A stretch of 64,000 nt of DNA from Salinarchaeum sp. Harcht-Bsk1 (GTDB taxonomy: Archaea > Halobacteriota > Halobacteria > Halobacteriales > Salinarchaeaceae). Positions 26,963-61,233 of the stretch are shown one piece after another; the stretch's first letter is position 1, and every line of letters begins with the position of its first letter. Both the position numbers and the translations under genes were made by a program. The stretch covers positions 992,001-1,056,000 of the forward strand of contig NC_021313.1 in NCBI RefSeq assembly GCF_000403645.1. Reading direction: 5' to 3'. A model generated the notes under the pieces. That model made no database searches. It worked only from the letters and a program-made list of their open reading frames with translations, and was not told where the DNA came from.

Positions 26963-27030
26963 TGCCGCGAGCTTCCTCGGACTGCAGGCGAACGTCCGAG
27001 CGGTATCGCGATACTGAGACCACTCTCCAC

Positions 27031-27149
27031 CTGGCGGACTGAAAGGGCGAGGCCCGTCTCGCCCACGCTCAGCCGGCCCTATCCGAATGAGCGAAGCGAA
27101 TGAGGATATCTGGCTGAGCGTGGGCGTGCGGGTCGAGGGCTTTCGAGGC
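27031..27149 (+). repeat. Dispersed palindromic element, copy A
   Basis: The left end reads GGCGGACTGAAAGGGCGAGG; the right end reads GAGGGCTTTCGAGG. Between them is a perfect 15-bp stem (27060-27074 with 27112-27126) enclosing a core of the type CCTATCCGA ... GAGGATAT (27078-27109). Copies B and C share the ends, and copy C shares the core, but the stem sequence differs in each. It fills the gap between the GT-C gene and a leftward sulfatase-like gene. Confidence 0.8.
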
Positions 27150-27190
27150 AGTTGCTGCGCTGCGAGGTCCTCCGCGACGTCGACACGTGC

Positions 27191-28495
27191 TTACTTGTAC
27201 CCGAGATCCTCGAGCAAGCCGTCGATCTCCAGCCGTTCGCCCTCGGTGAGTTCCCGGTCGGGGAACCGAGCGCGATACTGCTCGATGGCGTCCTCGTCGT
27301 CGATCGGGTACAGCTCCAGGGGATCCTCCTCCAGGTCGTAGAACTCCGGCGACCAGTCGCGGTCCGGATAGACCACGAGCTTCTTGCCGTCGGCACGCAG
27401 CCCGCGGGCCCAACTCTCCCGTTTGAGGAGCGAGGCACCGCAGGCACGCATGTAGGCGTCGCGATCCGTGACGCGCTCGGGCGACAGCAGCGATTCGCCG
27501 TCGATCGACTCGGTGCCTTCCTCAGTAGCCGATCGATCGTCGCCGTCGAGCAGGTCGAGCAGCGTCGGAAAAACGTCGACCTGCCGGACCTGCGCGTCGA
27601 CCTCGGCCTCGGGAATCCCCGGCCCCGACAGTACGAAAGGCACGTTCGCGACGGGGTCGGCGACGTTCTCGCCGTGGCGGTCGTCGAGGAAGCGATCCGG
27701 AACGGAACGCGGCCACCGCTCCGCGACGAACCGGTCGATCCGGCGCTCGATCGGGCGGGTGTCGAGGCCGAGGTAGTACCGCAGGCCGGTGCGAGCGTAC
27801 TTCCCGAGCTTGTGAACGGGATTGTGGATCCAGGTAATGGCCTCGCCGTGGTCGCCGTGCAGCGCGATCACCGTATCATCCGGCAGTCGGTCGCAGACGC
27901 GCTCCAGCGATCGGTCCAGCGCCGACAGCGTGCGGGCGTAGGGCGTCTCGCCGTACTGCGGGTCGTCGAAGTCGGGCGGGACCTCGATCGGCTTGTGGAT
28001 GGCCCACAGGTGGAGGTAGCAGAAGAACGGATCGTCAGCGTCGGACTCGGCGAGGGACTCGATCGCATCGGCGGCTTCGGCCTCCCACTCTTCGGTCAGC
28101 TTCTCGGTCCGATCGCGGTAGTGATACTCGTCGAAGCCGCGATCGAGCCCGGTGTCCTCGACGAGGGGGCCGGTGACCATCGCGGTCGTCTCGTAGCCCG
28201 CCTCCGAGAATCGCTCGGCGAGGGTGTCGACGTCCTCGCGAAGGCGGCCCTCGTCCAGCGAGTGGATGCCGTTGCCCTCGGAGTAGCGACCGGTCATGAA
28301 GCTCGCGACCGCGGGGGTGGTCGTGGTCGCAGTCGCGAACGTCGACGGGTAGCTGGCACCGCGCTCGACGAGCGAATCGATGAAAGGGGTGTCCGCGTGG
28401 TCGGTGCCCACGAAGTCCGAGCGGAGGCAGTCGACGCAGACGAAGAGGACGTTCGGACGCTCAGCTGGCGGATCCTCGGATCCGCCGTTGCTCAT
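27191..28495 (-). CDS. Sulfatase-like alkaline-phosphatase-superfamily protein 1
   Basis: This 434-residue protein has the sulfatase fold: the first metal strand NVLFVCVDCLRSD (residues 15-27), the nucleophile region TTTTPAVASFMTGR (57-70) and the metal motif LHGDHGEA near the middle. The formylglycine Cys of classical sulfatases is absent; Thr59 occupies that place (Thr-x-Pro), as in phospho-transfer members of the superfamily. No signal peptide or membrane helix is seen, so it is probably cytoplasmic. The C-terminus ends LLEDLGYK. It starts 4 bases after the next sulfatase-like gene (28500-29648), forming a two-gene operon. The substrate, sulfate or phosphate on glycan intermediates, is unknown. 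Confidence 0.85.
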   Translation of the reverse strand: MSNGGSEDPPAERPNVLFVCVDCLRSDFVGTDHADTPFIDSLVERGASYPSTFATATTTTPAVASFMTGRYSEGNGIHSLDEGRLREDVDTLAERFSEAGYETTAMVTGPLVEDTGLDRGFDEYHYRDRTEKLTEEWEAEAADAIESLAESDADDPFFCYLHLWAIHKPIEVPPDFDDPQYGETPYARTLSALDRSLERVCDRLPDDTVIALHGDHGEAITWIHNPVHKLGKYARTGLRYYLGLDTRPIERRIDRFVAERWPRSVPDRFLDDRHGENVADPVANVPFVLSGPGIPEAEVDAQVRQVDVFPTLLDLLDGDDRSATEEGTESIDGESLLSPERVTDRDAYMRACGASLLKRESWARGLRADGKKLVVYPDRDWSPEFYDLEEDPLELYPIDDEDAIEQYRARFPDRELTEGERLEIDGLLEDLGYK

Positions 28496-28499
28496 CTCC

Positions 28500-29648
28500 T
28501 CACCCGGCATCCTTGTAGCCGAGTTCCTGCAGGCGCTGCTCGACCGATTCGTCCACGTCGGCGCGGCCGACCGACGCTTCCTCGCCGCCCTCCTCGAAGG
28601 AGACGTCCGCGTCCGCGGCGATCAGCGTCGACTCCCGATCGCGGATCGCGACGGTCGCATCCTCGTGCCACGGGGCGACCGTCACGGCCTTTTCGGTGCC
28701 AGACTCCCGGAGGTCGTGCCCCGGCCACTCCGCGGGGGGTTCGACGCCGGCGGCGCTCGCGAGCGTCGGCCCGACGTCGAGCAGGCTCGCCCGATCCGCG
28801 GCGACGTCGACCCCGTCGATCGCCAGCGGGACCTGGACGATCGGATCCGGGACGCGCCGGCGGTACCCCTGGTGGTAGTAGTAGCCCTCCTCGCCGAGTT
28901 CGTCGCCGTGGTCTGAGGTGAACGCGAAGATCGGATCCTCGGCGTCGATCTCCTCGTAGAGGCGCTCGACGCGCTCGTCGGTTTGGGCGAGGGCGTCGCG
29001 GTACGTGTCGACGAGTTCCTCGTGCTCGGCGTCGGTCAACTCGGGATCGGGGAGGAGCGAGTCGCGGCCGCTCGCTTCGGCCTTCCGATCGAGTTCGGTC
29101 GGGAGCGCATCGTCGCCGCGGCCGTAGGGGCGGTGGCTCTCCATCAGGTGGACCCAGAGGAAGCGCGGGCCCTCGGCGTCGTTGAAGTGCTCGATTGCGT
29201 GGTCGACCACGTCGTCGTCCGGCGGGAGGCCGGAGAGGACCGCCTCCATCGGGAAGAGACGGTGGTAGACCGCCCGGACGACCTCGAACTGGCCGAGGTA
29301 CTCACGCAGGGAACTCCGGCGGTTCTCGACGGCGTTCCCGCCGCCGTCCATGAAGTTCTCGTAGTGGTCGAAGCCTGCGTCGAAGTCGAACGCGGGGTCA
29401 GCCTGCGCGCTGGCAGCGACGCCGAGGCAGGTGTACCCCGCGTCGTCGAAGACCTCCGCGATCGTCGGCGAGACGGCCTTGGACTGGATCGAACCAGTGA
29501 GGCGCGCGGAGTGAAGCCCGCCGAGACTCGGCCGGGTGTAGTGGCCGGCGGTGATGCCGAGCATCGGATCCAGCGAGTCGACGAACGCCATCTCTTCCGC
29601 GAAATCGTAGCGGACGGAGTCGGCCGTGACGAGGACGACGTCTCTCAT
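28500..29648 (-). CDS. Sulfatase-like alkaline-phosphatase-superfamily protein 2
   Basis: This 382-residue protein starts on the first metal strand MRDVVLVTADSVRYD. The nucleophile region is HYTRPSLGGLHSARLTG with Thr38 in Thr-x-Pro; FAFTSDHGDELGEEG carries the later metal ligands. There is no formylglycine Cys and no signal peptide. The tail is VEQRLQELGYKDAG, sharing the RLxxLGY ending of the other superfamily members in this window. It is the first gene of a leftward pair with protein 1. Upstream codons in the open frame look non-homologous, so the Met at 29648 was taken as start. Confidence 0.83.
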   Translation of the reverse strand: MRDVVLVTADSVRYDFAEEMAFVDSLDPMLGITAGHYTRPSLGGLHSARLTGSIQSKAVSPTIAEVFDDAGYTCLGVAASAQADPAFDFDAGFDHYENFMDGGGNAVENRRSSLREYLGQFEVVRAVYHRLFPMEAVLSGLPPDDDVVDHAIEHFNDAEGPRFLWVHLMESHRPYGRGDDALPTELDRKAEASGRDSLLPDPELTDAEHEELVDTYRDALAQTDERVERLYEEIDAEDPIFAFTSDHGDELGEEGYYYHQGYRRRVPDPIVQVPLAIDGVDVAADRASLLDVGPTLASAAGVEPPAEWPGHDLRESGTEKAVTVAPWHEDATVAIRDRESTLIAADADVSFEEGGEEASVGRADVDESVEQRLQELGYKDAG

Positions 29649-29889
29649 GGCCGAGACCCTCCGGCACTTCGCTGTCCGGCGACCCCCAGCGCGTCGGGCG
29701 ACCGCCGGCGTAGATGTGCTCCCGTCATGTCGATGATCGTTGCGGGCGTCGGCGGGTCGGTGCCGACCGTCCCGCATCCGTCGGCTACCCGAGCCTGTGC
29801 GTGCGGGTAGTATCAGGGTTGTGATAGCGCGTCGAGTATCACGGCCGGGTGTCGGCATTTCCGAACGGCGGAGAGGCGACGACAGCCGA

Positions 29890-29952
29890 TTGCCGAACGA
29901 CGATTACGAGTTCCGGAACGACCAGTATGAGTTACCGAACGACCGTCACGAG
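29890..29952 (-). repeat. 21-bp tandem repeat across the stop codon of the DUF2304-GT2 gene
   Basis: Three consecutive 21-base units occupy 29890-29910, 29911-29931 and 29932-29952. On the minus strand each reads CTC-x-GTCGTTC/CC-xAA. The first contains the stop TAA; the same codon is GAA and CAA in the next two. The repeats are in frame with the gene, so the frame would continue for two more units and 17 further codons if the stop were read through. Confidence 0.85.
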
Positions 29953-31002
29953 GATCGTCCGCGTGAGCCCGAGGGCGTACCCGAGCTTCGGCTTCTTCGT
30001 CTCGCCGGCGTCGCGACTACGGATCGTGACGGGGACCTCCTCGATACGGAGCCCGTTCTTGCGGGCCTCGATGATGAGCTCCGGGGCGCTGAAGCGCTCC
30101 TCGGTCAGCGTGAGTTCGTCGAGCCGGGAGCCCCGGATCGCACGATAGCCGTTCGTACAGTCCGTCACGTCGGCCTTCGAGACGAGATTGATGAACCAGG
30201 TGAACGCGCGGATGCCGAACCGGCGCGTCGGGCTGTTACCCGAGTCGTCCTCGCCGAGATACCGGGAGCCGAGGACGTAGTCCGCGCGGTCCTCGAGGAT
30301 CGGCTCGATCAGGGACTCGAGGTCGGCGGCGCGGTGCTGGCCGTCGGCGTCCATCGTCACGACGACGTCGGCGCCGTGTTGCTGGGCGATCGCGAACCCG
30401 GTCTTGAGCGCGCCGCCCTGCCCCTGGTTGATCGGGTGTTCGGTGACGATCGCGTCGGCGTCGGCCGCCGCGGCGCGCGTGTCGTCTTTGGATCCGTCCG
30501 AGACGACGATCGCCTCGACGCGGTGGCCCAGCACGCGCCCGGGCAGCGACTCGACGACGCCGCGGACGCTCTCGGCCTCGTTGTAGGCTGGGATGACGAC
30601 GCCGACGGTCGGCTCGTCGTGCGCCCGACCGTCGACGTTCCGGATCGCGAGCTGTCGGGTGAGTTCGCTGATCGACAGCTGGTTGTTCCGGATCATCGCC
30701 AGCGCGTAGAGCAACAGGAACGCGAAGGCGACGTTCGCCAGCAGGGAGACGACGAGCGATCGGCGCTCGACGTTGAGGACGCCACCGATCGCGCCGAAGA
30801 TGCCAGGGAGCACGCCGACGGTGAGCAGCCCCAGCGAGATCGCGGTCGCGACTGCCAGCTCCGTGCGCGAGAAGTTCGTCCGGTAGCGCTCGAACCCCCA
30901 CGCGAAGACGAGCACTGCGACGGCGACGAGGAAGAGCTGCAGGACGGTGTTGCTCAGCCCGGGCAGGCCGATCGCGAGCGACGAGGGCGTCACTGTAATC
31001 AC
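29932..31002 (-). CDS. DUF2304-GT2 fusion glycosyltransferase
   Basis: This 356-residue fusion has an N-terminal membrane part (about residues 1-120, three to four helices, DUF2304-like, ending near LLYALAMIRNNQLSISELTR). It is followed by a GT-A family 2 domain of the dolichyl-phosphate-mannose-synthase type, with VVIPAYNEAESVRGV, VVSDGSKDDT and the DxD motif VVTMDADGQHRAADL. It would load a hexose onto dolichyl phosphate at the cytoplasmic face, an AglD/AglJ-like role. It is divergent from a deacetylase and flippase-like gene pair. Its stop codon lies within a tandem repeat. Confidence 0.87.
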   Translation of the reverse strand: MITVTPSSLAIGLPGLSNTVLQLFLVAVAVLVFAWGFERYRTNFSRTELAVATAISLGLLTVGVLPGIFGAIGGVLNVERRSLVVSLLANVAFAFLLLYALAMIRNNQLSISELTRQLAIRNVDGRAHDEPTVGVVIPAYNEAESVRGVVESLPGRVLGHRVEAIVVSDGSKDDTRAAAADADAIVTEHPINQGQGGALKTGFAIAQQHGADVVVTMDADGQHRAADLESLIEPILEDRADYVLGSRYLGEDDSGNSPTRRFGIRAFTWFINLVSKADVTDCTNGYRAIRGSRLDELTLTEERFSAPELIIEARKNGLRIEEVPVTIRSRDAGETKKPKLGYALGLTRTILVTVVR

Positions 31003-31144
31003 CTCGAAATCCGAATGGCTGGCGAGTTAGTCATTTCGGAAGCTAACTGCGAGAGAGTGGGGAGCCGATGGCGAGCGGCAGCCCAGCGCCGCACGCCGCG
31101 TCAACAGACCCAAGTACTCGTCAACGAACCCTTCTGGGTAGACG

Positions 31145-32011
31145 ATGACGCGAGGTCGGGCGGCGCTCACGGTCGACCTGGAGACCTTCGAGCAGCTACC
31201 GGCCTACCGCGACGCGAACGGAACGACCGATCGGACCGACGTCGGCCTCGAGGTGCTCGACGACCTCCTCGCACTGCTCGACCGCCACGGCGCCACCTGC
31301 ACGTTCTTCACGGTGGCCAGCATCGCCGAGGACCATTCCGACCTGATCGCCGAGATTGCCGACCGCGGTCACGAAATTGCCTCGCACACCCGCTCGCACC
31401 GGCATCTGCCCGACCTCGCTCCCGACGAGCGCCGGGAAGAGATCACCGAGTCCCGTTCCATCCTCGAACACGCGGCCGGCACCGACGTCTCGGGCTTCCG
31501 GGCGCCCTCTTTTCAGCGAACCGACGATTCCCTCGAACTGCTCGCCGACGCGGGCTACGAGTACGACTCGAGTGTCGTCGCCGCTCGCTCGATCGGGTGG
31601 TACGGCGGCGGGCCGAAGCTCCACGACCCCTGTCCCGCGACGGCCGTCGATCCGGACGCCCCGGCCGACCTCCGCGAACTCCCCGTCTCGGTGATGCCCG
31701 GGCTCCGATTGCCGCTCACCGGCGCCTGGCTCCGCCTGTTCGGGATCCACTACGCGCTCGCCGGCATGATGCTGCAGGCCCGGCAGGGGCGCGCGCCCGT
31801 GCTGTACGTCCATCCCTGGGAACTGGCGGACCTGCCCGACGTCGAGGGCGTCCCGCGGCGGGTGACGGTCCGGACCGGCGACTGGACGTGGCGAGCGCTC
31901 GAGCGGATCCTGCAACAGGACGTCGAGTTCGTCACGGCTCGAACGCTCGCGATGGACGGCGCGGCAAGCGAGTCGCCACCCCAACCCAACGACGTGGAGG
32001 GTCGATCGTGA
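31145..32011 (+). CDS. Polysaccharide deacetylase family protein (NodB fold)
   Basis: This 288-residue carbohydrate esterase-4-like enzyme shows the metal/catalytic motifs: LTVDLETFEQ at the N-terminus, HEIASHTRSHRHLP, then FRAPSFQRTD and late LYVHPWEL. In archaeal glycan loci this type often follows the PEP-CTERM/GT-associated deacetylase layout. Lack of a signal peptide suggests action on a cytoplasmic or inner-face lipid-linked sugar, removing N-acetyl groups. The stop overlaps the GTG of the next membrane protein by four bases, so the pair is translationally coupled. Confidence 0.87.
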   Translation: MTRGRAALTVDLETFEQLPAYRDANGTTDRTDVGLEVLDDLLALLDRHGATCTFFTVASIAEDHSDLIAEIADRGHEIASHTRSHRHLPDLAPDERREEITESRSILEHAAGTDVSGFRAPSFQRTDDSLELLADAGYEYDSSVVAARSIGWYGGGPKLHDPCPATAVDPDAPADLRELPVSVMPGLRLPLTGAWLRLFGIHYALAGMMLQARQGRAPVLYVHPWELADLPDVEGVPRRVTVRTGDWTWRALERILQQDVEFVTARTLAMDGAASESPPQPNDVEGRS

Positions 32012-33039
32012 ACCGGAAGCGCCTGGTGACGGCGGCGAAATTCCTGGTCGGCGTCGCGCTGCTCGGGTGGGTCCTCTCGAGCGTCGACTGGGGCACCCTC
32101 CAGGACGACCTCGCTCGCCTCGACGCGTGGGTGCTGCTCGCCGTCCTCGCCGTCACCGCGCTCGAGTTCGGGACGCGGTTCGCGATGTGGCACGCCCTCC
32201 TGCGGAGCGTCGGCCGGCGCTCGACGCGGACCGTCGCCGAGGTCGATCTCAGCATCAAGTTCATCAATCACGTCGTGCCCTCGAAGGCCGCCGGCCACGC
32301 CGTCGCCCCGCTCGTCCTCCGGCACTTCGCGGATCTTGAGTGGAGCGACGCCGTCGGGATCGCGGGCTCGAACACCGCGCTCTACAGCCTGATATACGGA
32401 CTCACGGCGATCGTCGGGCTCGCGGTCTTCGCACTCGATCTGCCGCTCTGGCTGCTCGTCGGGATCGCCGCATCGACGGGGCTCTATCTCCTCGCCGCAG
32501 TCGCGATCTGGGGGACCGGGTTCGGTGCCGGCAGGCGGTACGGCCAGCGGCTCCTCGCGATCGGCGCATCGGTGCCGCTCGTCGGTTCGGTCGTCGCTCG
32601 CGCGGCCGGCGCGCTCCCCGCGATCGCCGGCCCGGCGCGCGAGACGTTCCAGGTCACCGTCACGAACCCCCGGGGCATCGTCGAGTACGCGCTCGCGATG
32701 GCGGGCACGATCGCAGTCTTCCCCGCGATCAGGGTCGGGCTCCTGCTCGCAGCCTTCGGCGAGCCGTTCGAGCCCGTCGTCCTCCTGCCGATCGCGCTCG
32801 TCACCGCCTACAGCCTGACGATCATGCCGATCACGCCCGGCGGCGTCGGCGTCGCGGAGTTCTCCGCGCTCTACGTGTTCGTCGCGCTCGGCGTGCCCGA
32901 GACGGCGATCGTCTCGGCGATCGTGATCGACCGCTTCCTCGGCGTCTACCTCCCGGCGTTCATCGGCTGGCTCCCGATGATGAACGTGGACTTCGGGAGT
33001 CTGGTGCGCGGCGAGCCGGCAGGCGGGGAAGGGTCGTAG
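32008..33039 (+). CDS. LPG-synthase-TM/UPF0104 family membrane protein (possible lipid-glycan flippase)
   Basis: This 343-residue protein has about eight helices and matches the lysylphosphatidylglycerol synthase transmembrane family (UPF0104), including the hallmark MPITPGGVGVAEFSALYVF near residues 272-290. The same domain forms the C-terminal half of the Haloferax glycosyltransferase AglD, so a role in moving or handling dolichyl-linked sugars is likely. GTG 32008 overlaps the deacetylase stop (GTGA). The transport function is an inference; no member in archaea is settled as a flippase from sequence alone. Confidence 0.82.
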   Translation: MNRKRLVTAAKFLVGVALLGWVLSSVDWGTLQDDLARLDAWVLLAVLAVTALEFGTRFAMWHALLRSVGRRSTRTVAEVDLSIKFINHVVPSKAAGHAVAPLVLRHFADLEWSDAVGIAGSNTALYSLIYGLTAIVGLAVFALDLPLWLLVGIAASTGLYLLAAVAIWGTGFGAGRRYGQRLLAIGASVPLVGSVVARAAGALPAIAGPARETFQVTVTNPRGIVEYALAMAGTIAVFPAIRVGLLLAAFGEPFEPVVLLPIALVTAYSLTIMPITPGGVGVAEFSALYVFVALGVPETAIVSAIVIDRFLGVYLPAFIGWLPMMNVDFGSLVRGEPAGGEGS

Positions 33040-33137
33040 CTCGGGCGAGGGACCACCGTGCTGATGCTGGCGTTACATTCCACGATTATCAGCACCCGAG
33101 GGATCCACGTTCCAGTAGCGGCTTCTCGAACCACGCT

Positions 33138-33309
33138 CCTGGCGGACTGAAAGGGCGAGGCCGGCTCCGGGAAGCCCGACGAAGTAAGGACCGGAGGGAG
33201 CGGAGCGACCGAGGACCGCAACGAGTCGCGCGAGTCACGCGAGCGAAGCGAGTGTGACGTCGTCGGAGCTTGCTCCGACGGAAGCGGAGCCGGCCGAGGG
33301 CTTTCGGCG
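33138..33309 (+). repeat. Dispersed palindromic element, copy B
   Basis: The left end GGCGGACTGAAAGGGCGAGG (33141-33160) is identical to copy A, and the right end is CCGAGGGCTTTCG. An 11-bp stem pairs 33159-33169 with 33285-33295; a separate perfect 9-bp hairpin with a TT loop lies at 33261-33280. The core is longer than in copies A and C and rich in GAGCGAAGCGAG-type strings. The remainder of the 33040-33399 gap has no gene that I can support. Confidence 0.78.
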
Positions 33310-33399
33310 TCCTTGCAAGCGCTGATGCGGCTCCGATCTCGGGTGCTGATCAATTCGGAAGCGAAACGGTATTTCGGCGGGACCCGAAACCGGCAGGCA

Positions 33400-34944
33400 A
33401 TGACCAAGACGATCGTCGTCGGGCTCGACGGGGCGAGCTGGGACCTCCTCGATCCCTGGATCGAGGCTGGCCACCTCCCCACGATCGAGCGGCTCCGCGA
33501 GGAGGGGAGCTGGGCGACGAACCGCAGCTGTTACCCGCCGGTGACCTTCCCGAACTGGAAGGTGTACGCGTCGGGGAAGAATCCCGGCCAGTTCGGCGTG
33601 TTCTGGTTCGAGCGCGTGGACCTCGCGAACGGCACGATCGACGTGATGGAGGGCGCGGACTTCGACACCGCGGAGCTGTGGGACTACCTCAACGACGAAG
33701 GCCACTCGACCGGCGTCGTGAACATGCCCTCGACCTACCCGCCCCGCGAGGTCGACGGGGTGATGATCGCCGGCGGGCCCGACGCCGTCGAGGGCGAGTA
33801 TCGCTCGATCGACTCGGGGTACACGTACCCGCCGGAACTCGCCGAGGAACTCCACGAGCGCTTCGACTACGACGTTCACCCCGATCCGCTCCTCTCTTCG
33901 AACGAGGAAACCGGCGCGGAGGTCGACGAGATCCTGCGTCTGCTCGACCTGCGCTTCGACGTGGCGATCGACGCGTTGCAGGAGCGCGACCTCGACTTCG
34001 TCCACGTCACACTCTTTTACCTCAACGTCATCCACCACTTCTTCTGGGACGCCGAGCCAAGCCTGCGGGCCTGGCAGCTCGTCGACGAGCGCCTCGCGGA
34101 GATCGACGCGATGGAGGGCGTCAACCTCGTGATCACCTCCGATCACGGCAGCATGGAGACCGAGGCAGAGTTCTACATCAACGAGTGGCTCGCCGAGAAC
34201 GGCTACCTCACGAAGGCCCGCTCCGCGGAGTACTACTTCCAGCGCCTGGGCCTGACCCGCGAGCGAGCCCTGGCACTCGCGAAGCGTGCCGGGGCAGTCG
34301 ACCTGCTCGCGAAGGTCGTCCCCGAGCGCATCCAGCGGATGGTGCCCCAGGAGGCCGGCGCGAAGCGCGGGCGGAAGCTGGAGGCGATCGACCTCGCCGA
34401 GACCGCGGCCGTCGCGAGCAGCCAGGGGCCGATCTACCTGAATCCTGACGTCGCGACGGAAGAGACCCGCGAACAGTTGATCGAGGACCTCCGCGCCGTC
34501 ACGGACGACCAGGGCGAGCCGTACTTCCCCGCGGTGTACCGCGGCGAGGAGGTCTATTCGGGCGAGTACGTCGAGGACGGCCCGGACGTCGTCGTGGAGC
34601 AGCGACCCGGAATCCACGTCAACGACGGGCTCGGCGGCGGTGAGGTCGTGACGGAGCCGGATCGCTGGGCCGCAGAGAACACGATGACCGGCATCTTCCT
34701 CGCGACGGGGCCGGACTTCGAGCCGCGGGGCCACATGGACGAGATCGACATGGTCGACGTCGCGCCGACGCTGCTGGCGACCTACGACGTCGCGATCCCG
34801 ACCGACGTCGACGGCGAGGTGTTGGACATCTTCTCAGAGCCGCGCGATCCCGGCACGCGCGAGCCGATCGATCTCGACGACGATCGTGGGAGCGAGGCGG
34901 GCGACGTGGAGGACCGGCTGAAGCAGCTCGGCTACATGGAGTGA
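33400..34944 (+). CDS. Type I phosphodiesterase/nucleotide-pyrophosphatase-like protein
   Basis: This 514-residue alkaline-phosphatase-superfamily member of the NPP type opens with VVGLDGASWDLLDPW. The nucleophile is Thr49 in PPVTFPNWKVYASGKNPG; later metal ligands sit in VITSDHGSMETEAEF and near the C-terminal GIHVND. No signal peptide is present. The tail VEDRLKQLGYME has the shared RLxxLGY ending. It resembles protein 51499-53016 along its whole length (a clear paralogue). Inverted copies of the palindromic element flank it. It probably cleaves or transfers a phospho- or sulfo-ester on sugar nucleotides or lipid-linked glycans; the substrate is unknown. Confidence 0.87.
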   Translation: MTKTIVVGLDGASWDLLDPWIEAGHLPTIERLREEGSWATNRSCYPPVTFPNWKVYASGKNPGQFGVFWFERVDLANGTIDVMEGADFDTAELWDYLNDEGHSTGVVNMPSTYPPREVDGVMIAGGPDAVEGEYRSIDSGYTYPPELAEELHERFDYDVHPDPLLSSNEETGAEVDEILRLLDLRFDVAIDALQERDLDFVHVTLFYLNVIHHFFWDAEPSLRAWQLVDERLAEIDAMEGVNLVITSDHGSMETEAEFYINEWLAENGYLTKARSAEYYFQRLGLTRERALALAKRAGAVDLLAKVVPERIQRMVPQEAGAKRGRKLEAIDLAETAAVASSQGPIYLNPDVATEETREQLIEDLRAVTDDQGEPYFPAVYRGEEVYSGEYVEDGPDVVVEQRPGIHVNDGLGGGEVVTEPDRWAAENTMTGIFLATGPDFEPRGHMDEIDMVDVAPTLLATYDVAIPTDVDGEVLDIFSEPRDPGTREPIDLDDDRGSEAGDVEDRLKQLGYME

Positions 34945-34999
34945 GGTTGAACGGAGGGGATGGTCGCATACCAGACCGTTCACAGCTCGCCGTTTCGAC

Positions 35000-35119
35000 C
35001 TCGAAAGCCCTCGGCGCGCTCGCGGCCGCTGCGCGACATATCCTCGCTCGCTCTGCTCGCTCGGATAGGGGTCACGCAGCGGCCGCCAGACGCGCCTCGC
35101 CCTTTCAGTCCGCCAGGAG
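35000..35119 (-). repeat. Dispersed palindromic element, copy C (inverted)
   Basis: This copy lies on the opposite strand to A and B, with the GGCGGACTGAAAGGGCGAGG end at about 35095-35114 and the CCTCGAAAGCCCTCG end at about 35000-35014. A perfect 12-bp stem pairs 35022-35033 with 35075-35086 and encloses the same core as copy A (CCTATCCGA ... GAGGATAT read on the minus strand). The rest of the 34945-35326 gap shows no gene. AGTAAC is repeated at 35304-35309 and 35320-35325, just before the next start. Confidence 0.8.
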
Positions 35120-61003: not shown

Positions 61004-61160
61004 GGGAGATCAGAGATCTCCCGACGTCGCGGCTTGCGCCGCGACAGCCCCTCCCGCTCGATGATCCTCACTCGCTGTGCGCTTCGCTCGGCCTTCGGCC
61101 TCGCTGCAGCGCTTGCGTCGTTACGATCGACGAGCGGTCGGCCCCTTCCAGTCCCACCCC
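61004..61160 (-). repeat. Palindromic element, diverged copy D, with extra hairpins
   Basis: Read on the minus strand it starts GGGACTGGAAGGGGCCG (related to GGACTGAAAGGGCGAG of copies A-C). It has an 11-of-13 stem (61125-61137 with 61054-61066), a core with GAGCGAAGCG and GTGAGGAT, then GGGCT. Two more perfect 8-bp hairpins follow (61026-61045, loop TTGC; 61004-61022, loop AGA). It lies between the convergent ends of the DUF368 gene and nop10, where a terminator function for both is conceivable. Confidence 0.65.
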
Positions 61161-61233
61161 GTTCATATTCGCGTTGAGCGATAGCCGGTGGTACGCATAC
61201 TAGAACGTCGCTCCATAGAAAAGCCGGCAGCCG

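Follow-up and report, generated by a model that had tools for sequence, protein, structure and literature searches.

The short palindromic elements dispersed over the window, i.e., the stretch of 64,000 nucleotides from Salinarchaeum sp. Harcht-Bsk1 that was analyzed here, are very probably the hairpin core of a haloarchaeal superfamily of IS6-family MITEs and old descendants of a mobile form moved by a transposase of the ISH29/ISH15 group. We propose that in this mobile form a GGYRGTGTTCAGATAAG repeat would be followed by about 40 nt, a folded core of about 118 nt, another 27 nt or so and the repeat in inverse orientation. The core itself would consist, in this order, of a 5' tail, a terminal helix, a tandem G-A loop, a long variable stem, an inner core of type I or type II and the 3' end. 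An ISH29/ISH15-group transposase (IS6 family, DDE) would recognize the ends and, upon inserting the element, duplicate 8 bp of target sequence. The window copies would descend from such intact forms with inverted repeats that have since been lost to recognition, and the fold would serve the element or its host, either as RNA or as single-stranded DNA, independently of the ends.

Copies in the window and distribution of the family

Three copies had been described in the initial annotation. They proved to be real and to lie essentially where they had been placed: copy A at 27030..27144 (+ strand, 115 nt), copy B at 33138..33305 (+ strand) and copy C at 35003..35117 (- strand). All three have sharp borders (CCTGG...CTTTC) and contain an exact copy of the 17-mer GGACTGAAAGGGCGAGG, for which only 0.27 occurrences are expected in the window when up to three mismatches are allowed. 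A covariance search revealed copy D at 61043..61161 (- strand), which had previously been overlooked. Copies A and C have the core CCTATCC...GGATAT in common (type I), as had been noted, while the core of copy B differs (GACGAAGTAAGGACC...GGACCGCAACGAGTC, type II) and is of the same type as that of copy D. Copies A, B and C carry alpha ends (CCTGGCGGACT-GAAAG...CTTTC in copy A) and copy D carries beta ends (GGGTGGGACTGGAAGGGGC...), its 3' terminus being broken by other small hairpins. With E-values that are to be read as rough, covariance model R1 yields 109 bits for copy A (E 1.6e-19) and 113 bits for copy C (E 2.2e-20), and model R2 yields 67 bits for copy B (E 2.1e-12) and 35.8 bits for copy D (E 8e-6); copies A, B and D are also evident from the sequence itself.

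The ends had been regarded as imperfect inverted repeats of each other, and this is reflected in their layout. The 5' conserved end of copy A, CCTGGCGGACTGAAAGGGCGA (27030..27050, + strand), falls into near-invariant columns of 34 type I copies and comprises an unpaired tail of 11 nt, the strand GAAAG of the terminal helix and the loop GGCGA. In the 3' conserved end, CGAGGGCTTTC (27134..27144, + strand), CTTTC pairs with GAAAG, and a near-invariant internal loop (GGGCGA / YGAGGG) that contains tandem G-A mismatches follows. The stems are complementary inside each copy, again as originally described. Copy B contains an extra inserted hairpin and is bracketed by a perfect 13-bp inverted repeat, the left arm of which (ATCAGCACCCGAG, 33088..33100, + strand) is not an IS6-type end; the spacings of this arm and of the right arm (CTCGGGTGCTGAT, 33338..33350, + strand) resemble those of IS6-type ends.

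The family extends far beyond the window. In the source genome (3.26 Mb), about 18 copies have the ends of copies A to C, and the type II model has at least 90 matches there and at least 102 in the congener, but none in one further genus of the same family. Within the order, 106 of 295 genomes contain the end pattern of copies A to C; copy numbers range from 0 to 153 per genome and are highly uneven within genera. A covariance-model search of haloarchaeal genomes, as proposed in the initial annotation, returned matches to the type II model in 153 of 196 genomes (53 of 66 genera); the copy counts are lower bounds. Dozens to more than 100 copies per haloarchaeal genome are often present; they lie between genes, in either orientation, and were unannotated in the plasmid records examined. 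Copies from Halosimplex, Halorussus, Halonotius, Halovenus and others have one outer scaffold in common, which holds either a type I core (CCCTATCC...GGATAT), frequently around a GCGAGCGAAGCGAGC mini-hairpin, or a type II core (GACGAMGYAAGSACYGCAG...GAGGAGCGCAGCGAGYC). Beta ends (GGGTGGGACT-NNAAG-GGGC...GGGG-CTTNN) are found on many type II matches, often as head-to-head pairs around a conserved central segment. A literature search by motif letters returned nothing relevant, and as far as could be checked, this family of hairpin-cored haloarchaeal MITEs has hitherto been uncatalogued.

Some arrangements depart from the common scaffold. Some copies, mainly in Halosimplex pelagicum, are followed by two to five tandem repeats of the 3' end GCGAGCGCGGCGAGGGCTTTC with similar spacers of 35-40 nt and a period of mostly 54-63 bp (L069, 1727-2080; L127, 3156-3499; L075, 4735-5086; L152, L151, L108 and L057), so that more than one 3' end might be available for pairing with a single 5' end. 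The entire interior is absent from the minimal forms CCTGGYGGAYTGAAAGGGCGAGGGCTTTCG (L026, L049, L101 at ~5928 on the - strand, and L008), which may have arisen when the GAGG repeats at the base of the hairpin slipped against each other or may represent an empty scaffold. In composite repeats of 400-540 bp (L215, L222, L230, L234 and L236), two head-to-head beta hairpins flank a conserved center with GGYTGGGGAGG that carries hairpins of its own; these composites, for which plasmid matches are weak, likely constitute a further repeat class. In several copies (L016, L036 and L006), CCTGG is preceded at a distance of about 22 nt by CGAAAGCCCAC, which gives the impression of an older element end at this position.

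Covariation in the folded core

Stem changes with retention of pairing had been taken as a sign of selection on a folded structure, and this conclusion is now backed by many more copies and by strong covariation in a larger alignment. Scored on structures derived from the same alignments, and in counts that are not independent of relatedness, 19 of 29 pairs are changed on both sides in type I (34 copies) and 22 of 30 in type II (44 copies). In type I, 96.3% of the cells are paired and 116 cells show both-side changes as compared to 30.6 in shuffles; the corresponding values for type II are 93.7% and 236 versus 76.8. For neither type did any of 500 shuffles attain the observed number of both-side changes, and the signal was lost when the partner was shifted by one to three columns. 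The terminal helix is near-invariant among alpha copies, a conservation that is inflated because copies were gathered via their ends, and covaries between subfamilies (GAAAG/CTTTC, GGAAG/CTTCC, CGAAG/CTTCG, CAAAG/CTTTG). It is adjoined by tandem G-A mismatches, which are near-invariant, as are other unpaired bases (26 and 29 columns conserved at 90% or more). G-U mispairs outnumber A-C mispairs by 28:5 and 43:15, again in counts affected by relatedness. An outer helix, in which the flanks outside GAAAG/CTTTC would pair, was considered and rejected, since it showed no covariation and a mean energy of -12.4 versus -12.5 kcal/mol for permuted flanks.

Quasipalindrome correction is known to occur in palindromes of double-stranded DNA. 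In principle, pairing could thus be kept by mutation alone, template switching within the palindrome copying one arm onto the other, and the strong differences between the arms of different copies are in line with this. However, such a process predicts no strand preference, which is at odds with the excess of G-U over A-C mispairs (not phylogenetically independent counts), and it should erase mismatched loops, whereas the tandem G-A and other loops are near-invariant. Countered by both observations as the sole cause of the pairing, this explanation appears quite improbable. Taken together, the compensatory changes, the G-U bias and the invariant unpaired bases argue that the core is maintained as a single folded strand. 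The G-U excess points to the CCTGG strand as the one that acts in single-stranded form. Together with the conservation of two copies between diverged flanks in the congener, it suggests that selection acts on this folded strand itself. The fold presumably has a role. A simple MITE would be expected to do without a conserved folded core, so that the MITE model alone leaves the covariation unexplained.

These properties would also be expected if the core were an independent structured non-coding RNA family that is spread by MITE ends as one vehicle among others. In addition to covariation, conserved unpaired bases and G-U bias, this explanation is favored by the one scaffold shared by two core types, by a core that outlasts the loss of the ends and remains conserved amid diverged flanks, and by head-to-head composites and tandem arrays that contain the core but have no IS6 ends. 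On the other hand, Rfam 15 returned no match in the window and none at a relaxed threshold over copies B and C, no promoter-like (TATA-like) signal occurs at a fixed distance from the copies, and copy number is very high and patchy. The orientation to neighboring genes is unbiased (58 same, 46 opposite, 34 convergent and 36 divergent, on gene calls from a codon-usage script), which led us to reject a role as 3' UTR, terminator or riboswitch as well. A cognate neighbor gene was likewise dismissed, as the adjacent genes are housekeeping genes and differ. We regard an independent RNA family as possible but doubtful. Similarly tentative is the broader notion of a structured single-strand family, RNA or single-stranded DNA, that is carried by IS6 MITEs, has an independent function which persists after transposition has ceased, and includes fixed copies (copy C, for example) that have been adopted by the host. 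The structured RNA option of the initial annotation may nevertheless survive as an additional property of the element.

Terminal repeats, target duplications and probable descent of the window copies

The case for IS6-type mobilization comes from intact relatives. Words enriched in the flanks of the copies pointed to GTGTTCAGATA at 53-55 nt on the upstream side and to TATCTGAACAC at a downstream distance of about 27 nt. The pattern TGTTCAGATA-N175-205-TATCTGAACA, with both 10-bp ends perfect, occurs in 20 of 394 genomes (15 of 95 genera), while the reversed control gave 0. The intact elements are about 205-235 bp long, too short to encode a transposase, and have 17-bp terminal inverted repeats GGYRGTGTTCAGATAAG. 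Three of 41 distinct intact elements lack the hairpin; the others have it, combined with alpha or beta ends and with either core type. When the inverted repeat was extended to GGYRG..., and with a few loci counted twice, 8-bp target duplications were exact for 18 of 44 hairpin-bearing intact copies and present with at most one mismatch for 20 of 44, as compared to 0.24% (at most one mismatch) for swapped flanks. Note that when all copies were searched for 8-bp repeats with the offset left free, the signal was weak (top offset 4 versus 3 permuted); it became clear only upon restriction to intact-ended copies. In genome G151, near-identical copies at different sites have different duplications, a sign of recent movement.

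Four elements of about 700 bp (in G168, G130 and G006) share the GGYRGTGTTCAGATAAG ends and carry a transposase, and that of the one element tested matched the NCBIfam model NF033587 (IS6) with 2e-55. Plasmid relatives of these elements are annotated as ISH29 and ISH15. Two of the four are themselves bordered by 8-bp duplications (CACCCGCA, GCCGGTGA), and duplications of this length are known for IS6 elements. From the shared ends and duplications we infer that an IS6 transposase would mobilize the short elements in trans. The view of a MITE-like element moved by a distant transposase thus gained substance from intact relatives with IS6-family terminal inverted repeats and 8-bp target duplications. 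A search with PF13610, a weak model that scores these IS6 transposases barely above its cut-off, indicated a patchy presence of IS6 and gave no hit in G143 despite the intact copies there. A different MITE without the hairpin core (TGTTCAGATAA...AGTAATA; L350, L362 and L367) has the same IS6-type ends and perfect 8-bp duplications.

An origin as a PATE or REP element related to IS200/IS605 and moved by a Y1 transposase was also considered. The elements are palindromic and intergenic, and PATEs are abundant in Haloquadratum and have been described as making no duplications (PMC3119063). The intact copies, with 8-bp duplications and IS6-type ends, contradict such an origin. Furthermore, the source genome (G000) is devoid of detectable Y1_Tnp and TnpB, PF01797 (Y1) having no match there or in the congener G001, and 28 of 29 TnpB loci were without the ends in their flanks, the exception being 1.2 kb off. 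We consider this origin extremely improbable, and the initial suggestion of a REP-like repeat in the strict sense, dependent on Y1/TnpA_REP, is disfavored for the source genome. Viral spread was rejected because the search yielded just one chance match in a phage coding region (viral_contigs) and none in phages.

IS6-type inverted repeats or duplications are not found on the window copies, the ends are missing from most copies of the genus, and both are almost never seen in the source genome, where no IS6-type end match stood clearly above the control and neither IS6 (by PF13610, weak for these proteins) nor Y1 nor TnpB transposases were detected. Some copies in high-copy genomes such as Halosimplex are without IS6-type ends and have tandem 3' arrays. 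One could argue that the source-genome copies owe their insertion to a different transposase that recognizes different ends and have only the core in common with IS6 MITEs; besides the absence of IS6-type ends, the 13-bp inverted repeat ATCAGCACCCGAG/CTCGGGTGCTGAT around copy B is compatible with this. Yet 48 copies from the genus have no inverted repeat in common, and a few copies, among them L009 (12/17 at +27), retain weak right-end remnants, which makes another transposase unlikely. The window copies are best read as old descendants of the mobile form, a descent suggested by their core and ends.

Comparison with the congener G001 gives information on individual sites. Copy C has an ortholog at the same site (96% identical) with one compensatory pair (C-G to U-A), and L004 has one that is 91% identical. 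One of the four flanks of these two copies is 77% identical to the congener and contains another conserved palindrome; the other three are 14-43% identical. Copy B is missing from the orthologous intergenic region. An intergenic slot after an MFS transporter gene (L005/L035) is occupied by type II in the source genome and by type I in the congener; here, cores may have been exchanged on a common scaffold or sites may have been reused.

Comparison with known repeat families

MITE interiors are usually regarded as disposable. In the hairpin family, no other part is as conserved as the interior, which also covaries, so that the role of the fold can be tested directly. Intergenic palindromes in about three quarters of the sampled haloarchaeal genomes receive one identity and one probable mover, and the covariance models permit their routine annotation.

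The closest counterparts are the two IS6-family MITEs in ISfinder, MITEBth2 and MITEHarch3, of 227 and 336 bp (PMC6807381, PMC7986276), which resemble the hairpin family in size, IS6-type ends and lack of a transposase. Judged by its name, MITEHarch3 is probably from the halophilic archaeon DL31, and it may belong to the hairpin family. Unlike the hairpin family, the IS6-family MITEs are described in the papers found without a conserved and covarying core, two end types or a spread over 53 genera. Elements of the ISH29/ISH15 group share terminal inverted repeats and 8-bp duplications with the hairpin family, but enclose a transposase of ~211 aa, and their interior is unrelated to the hairpin core. 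REP/REPIN elements with TnpA_REP (RAYT) are likewise dispersed intergenic palindromes, and the head-to-head pairs of the beta subfamily are reminiscent of them. They are, however, associated with Y1 TnpA_REP, whereas the source genome is without a Y1 transposase; among archaeal Y1 enzymes, the IS200 type is the only subclass seen (PMC6006769). The PATEs and SMR-A elements of Haloquadratum, too, are short transposase-free haloarchaeal repeats with palindromes or inverted repeats (PMC3119063). SMR-A elements, of ~110 bp and with mobilization described as unknown, differ from the hairpin family in that they make no duplications and target PATEs (PMC3119063). PATEs share their ends with IS605 transposons and generate no duplications, whereas the hairpin family combines IS6 ends with 8-bp duplications (PMC3119063).
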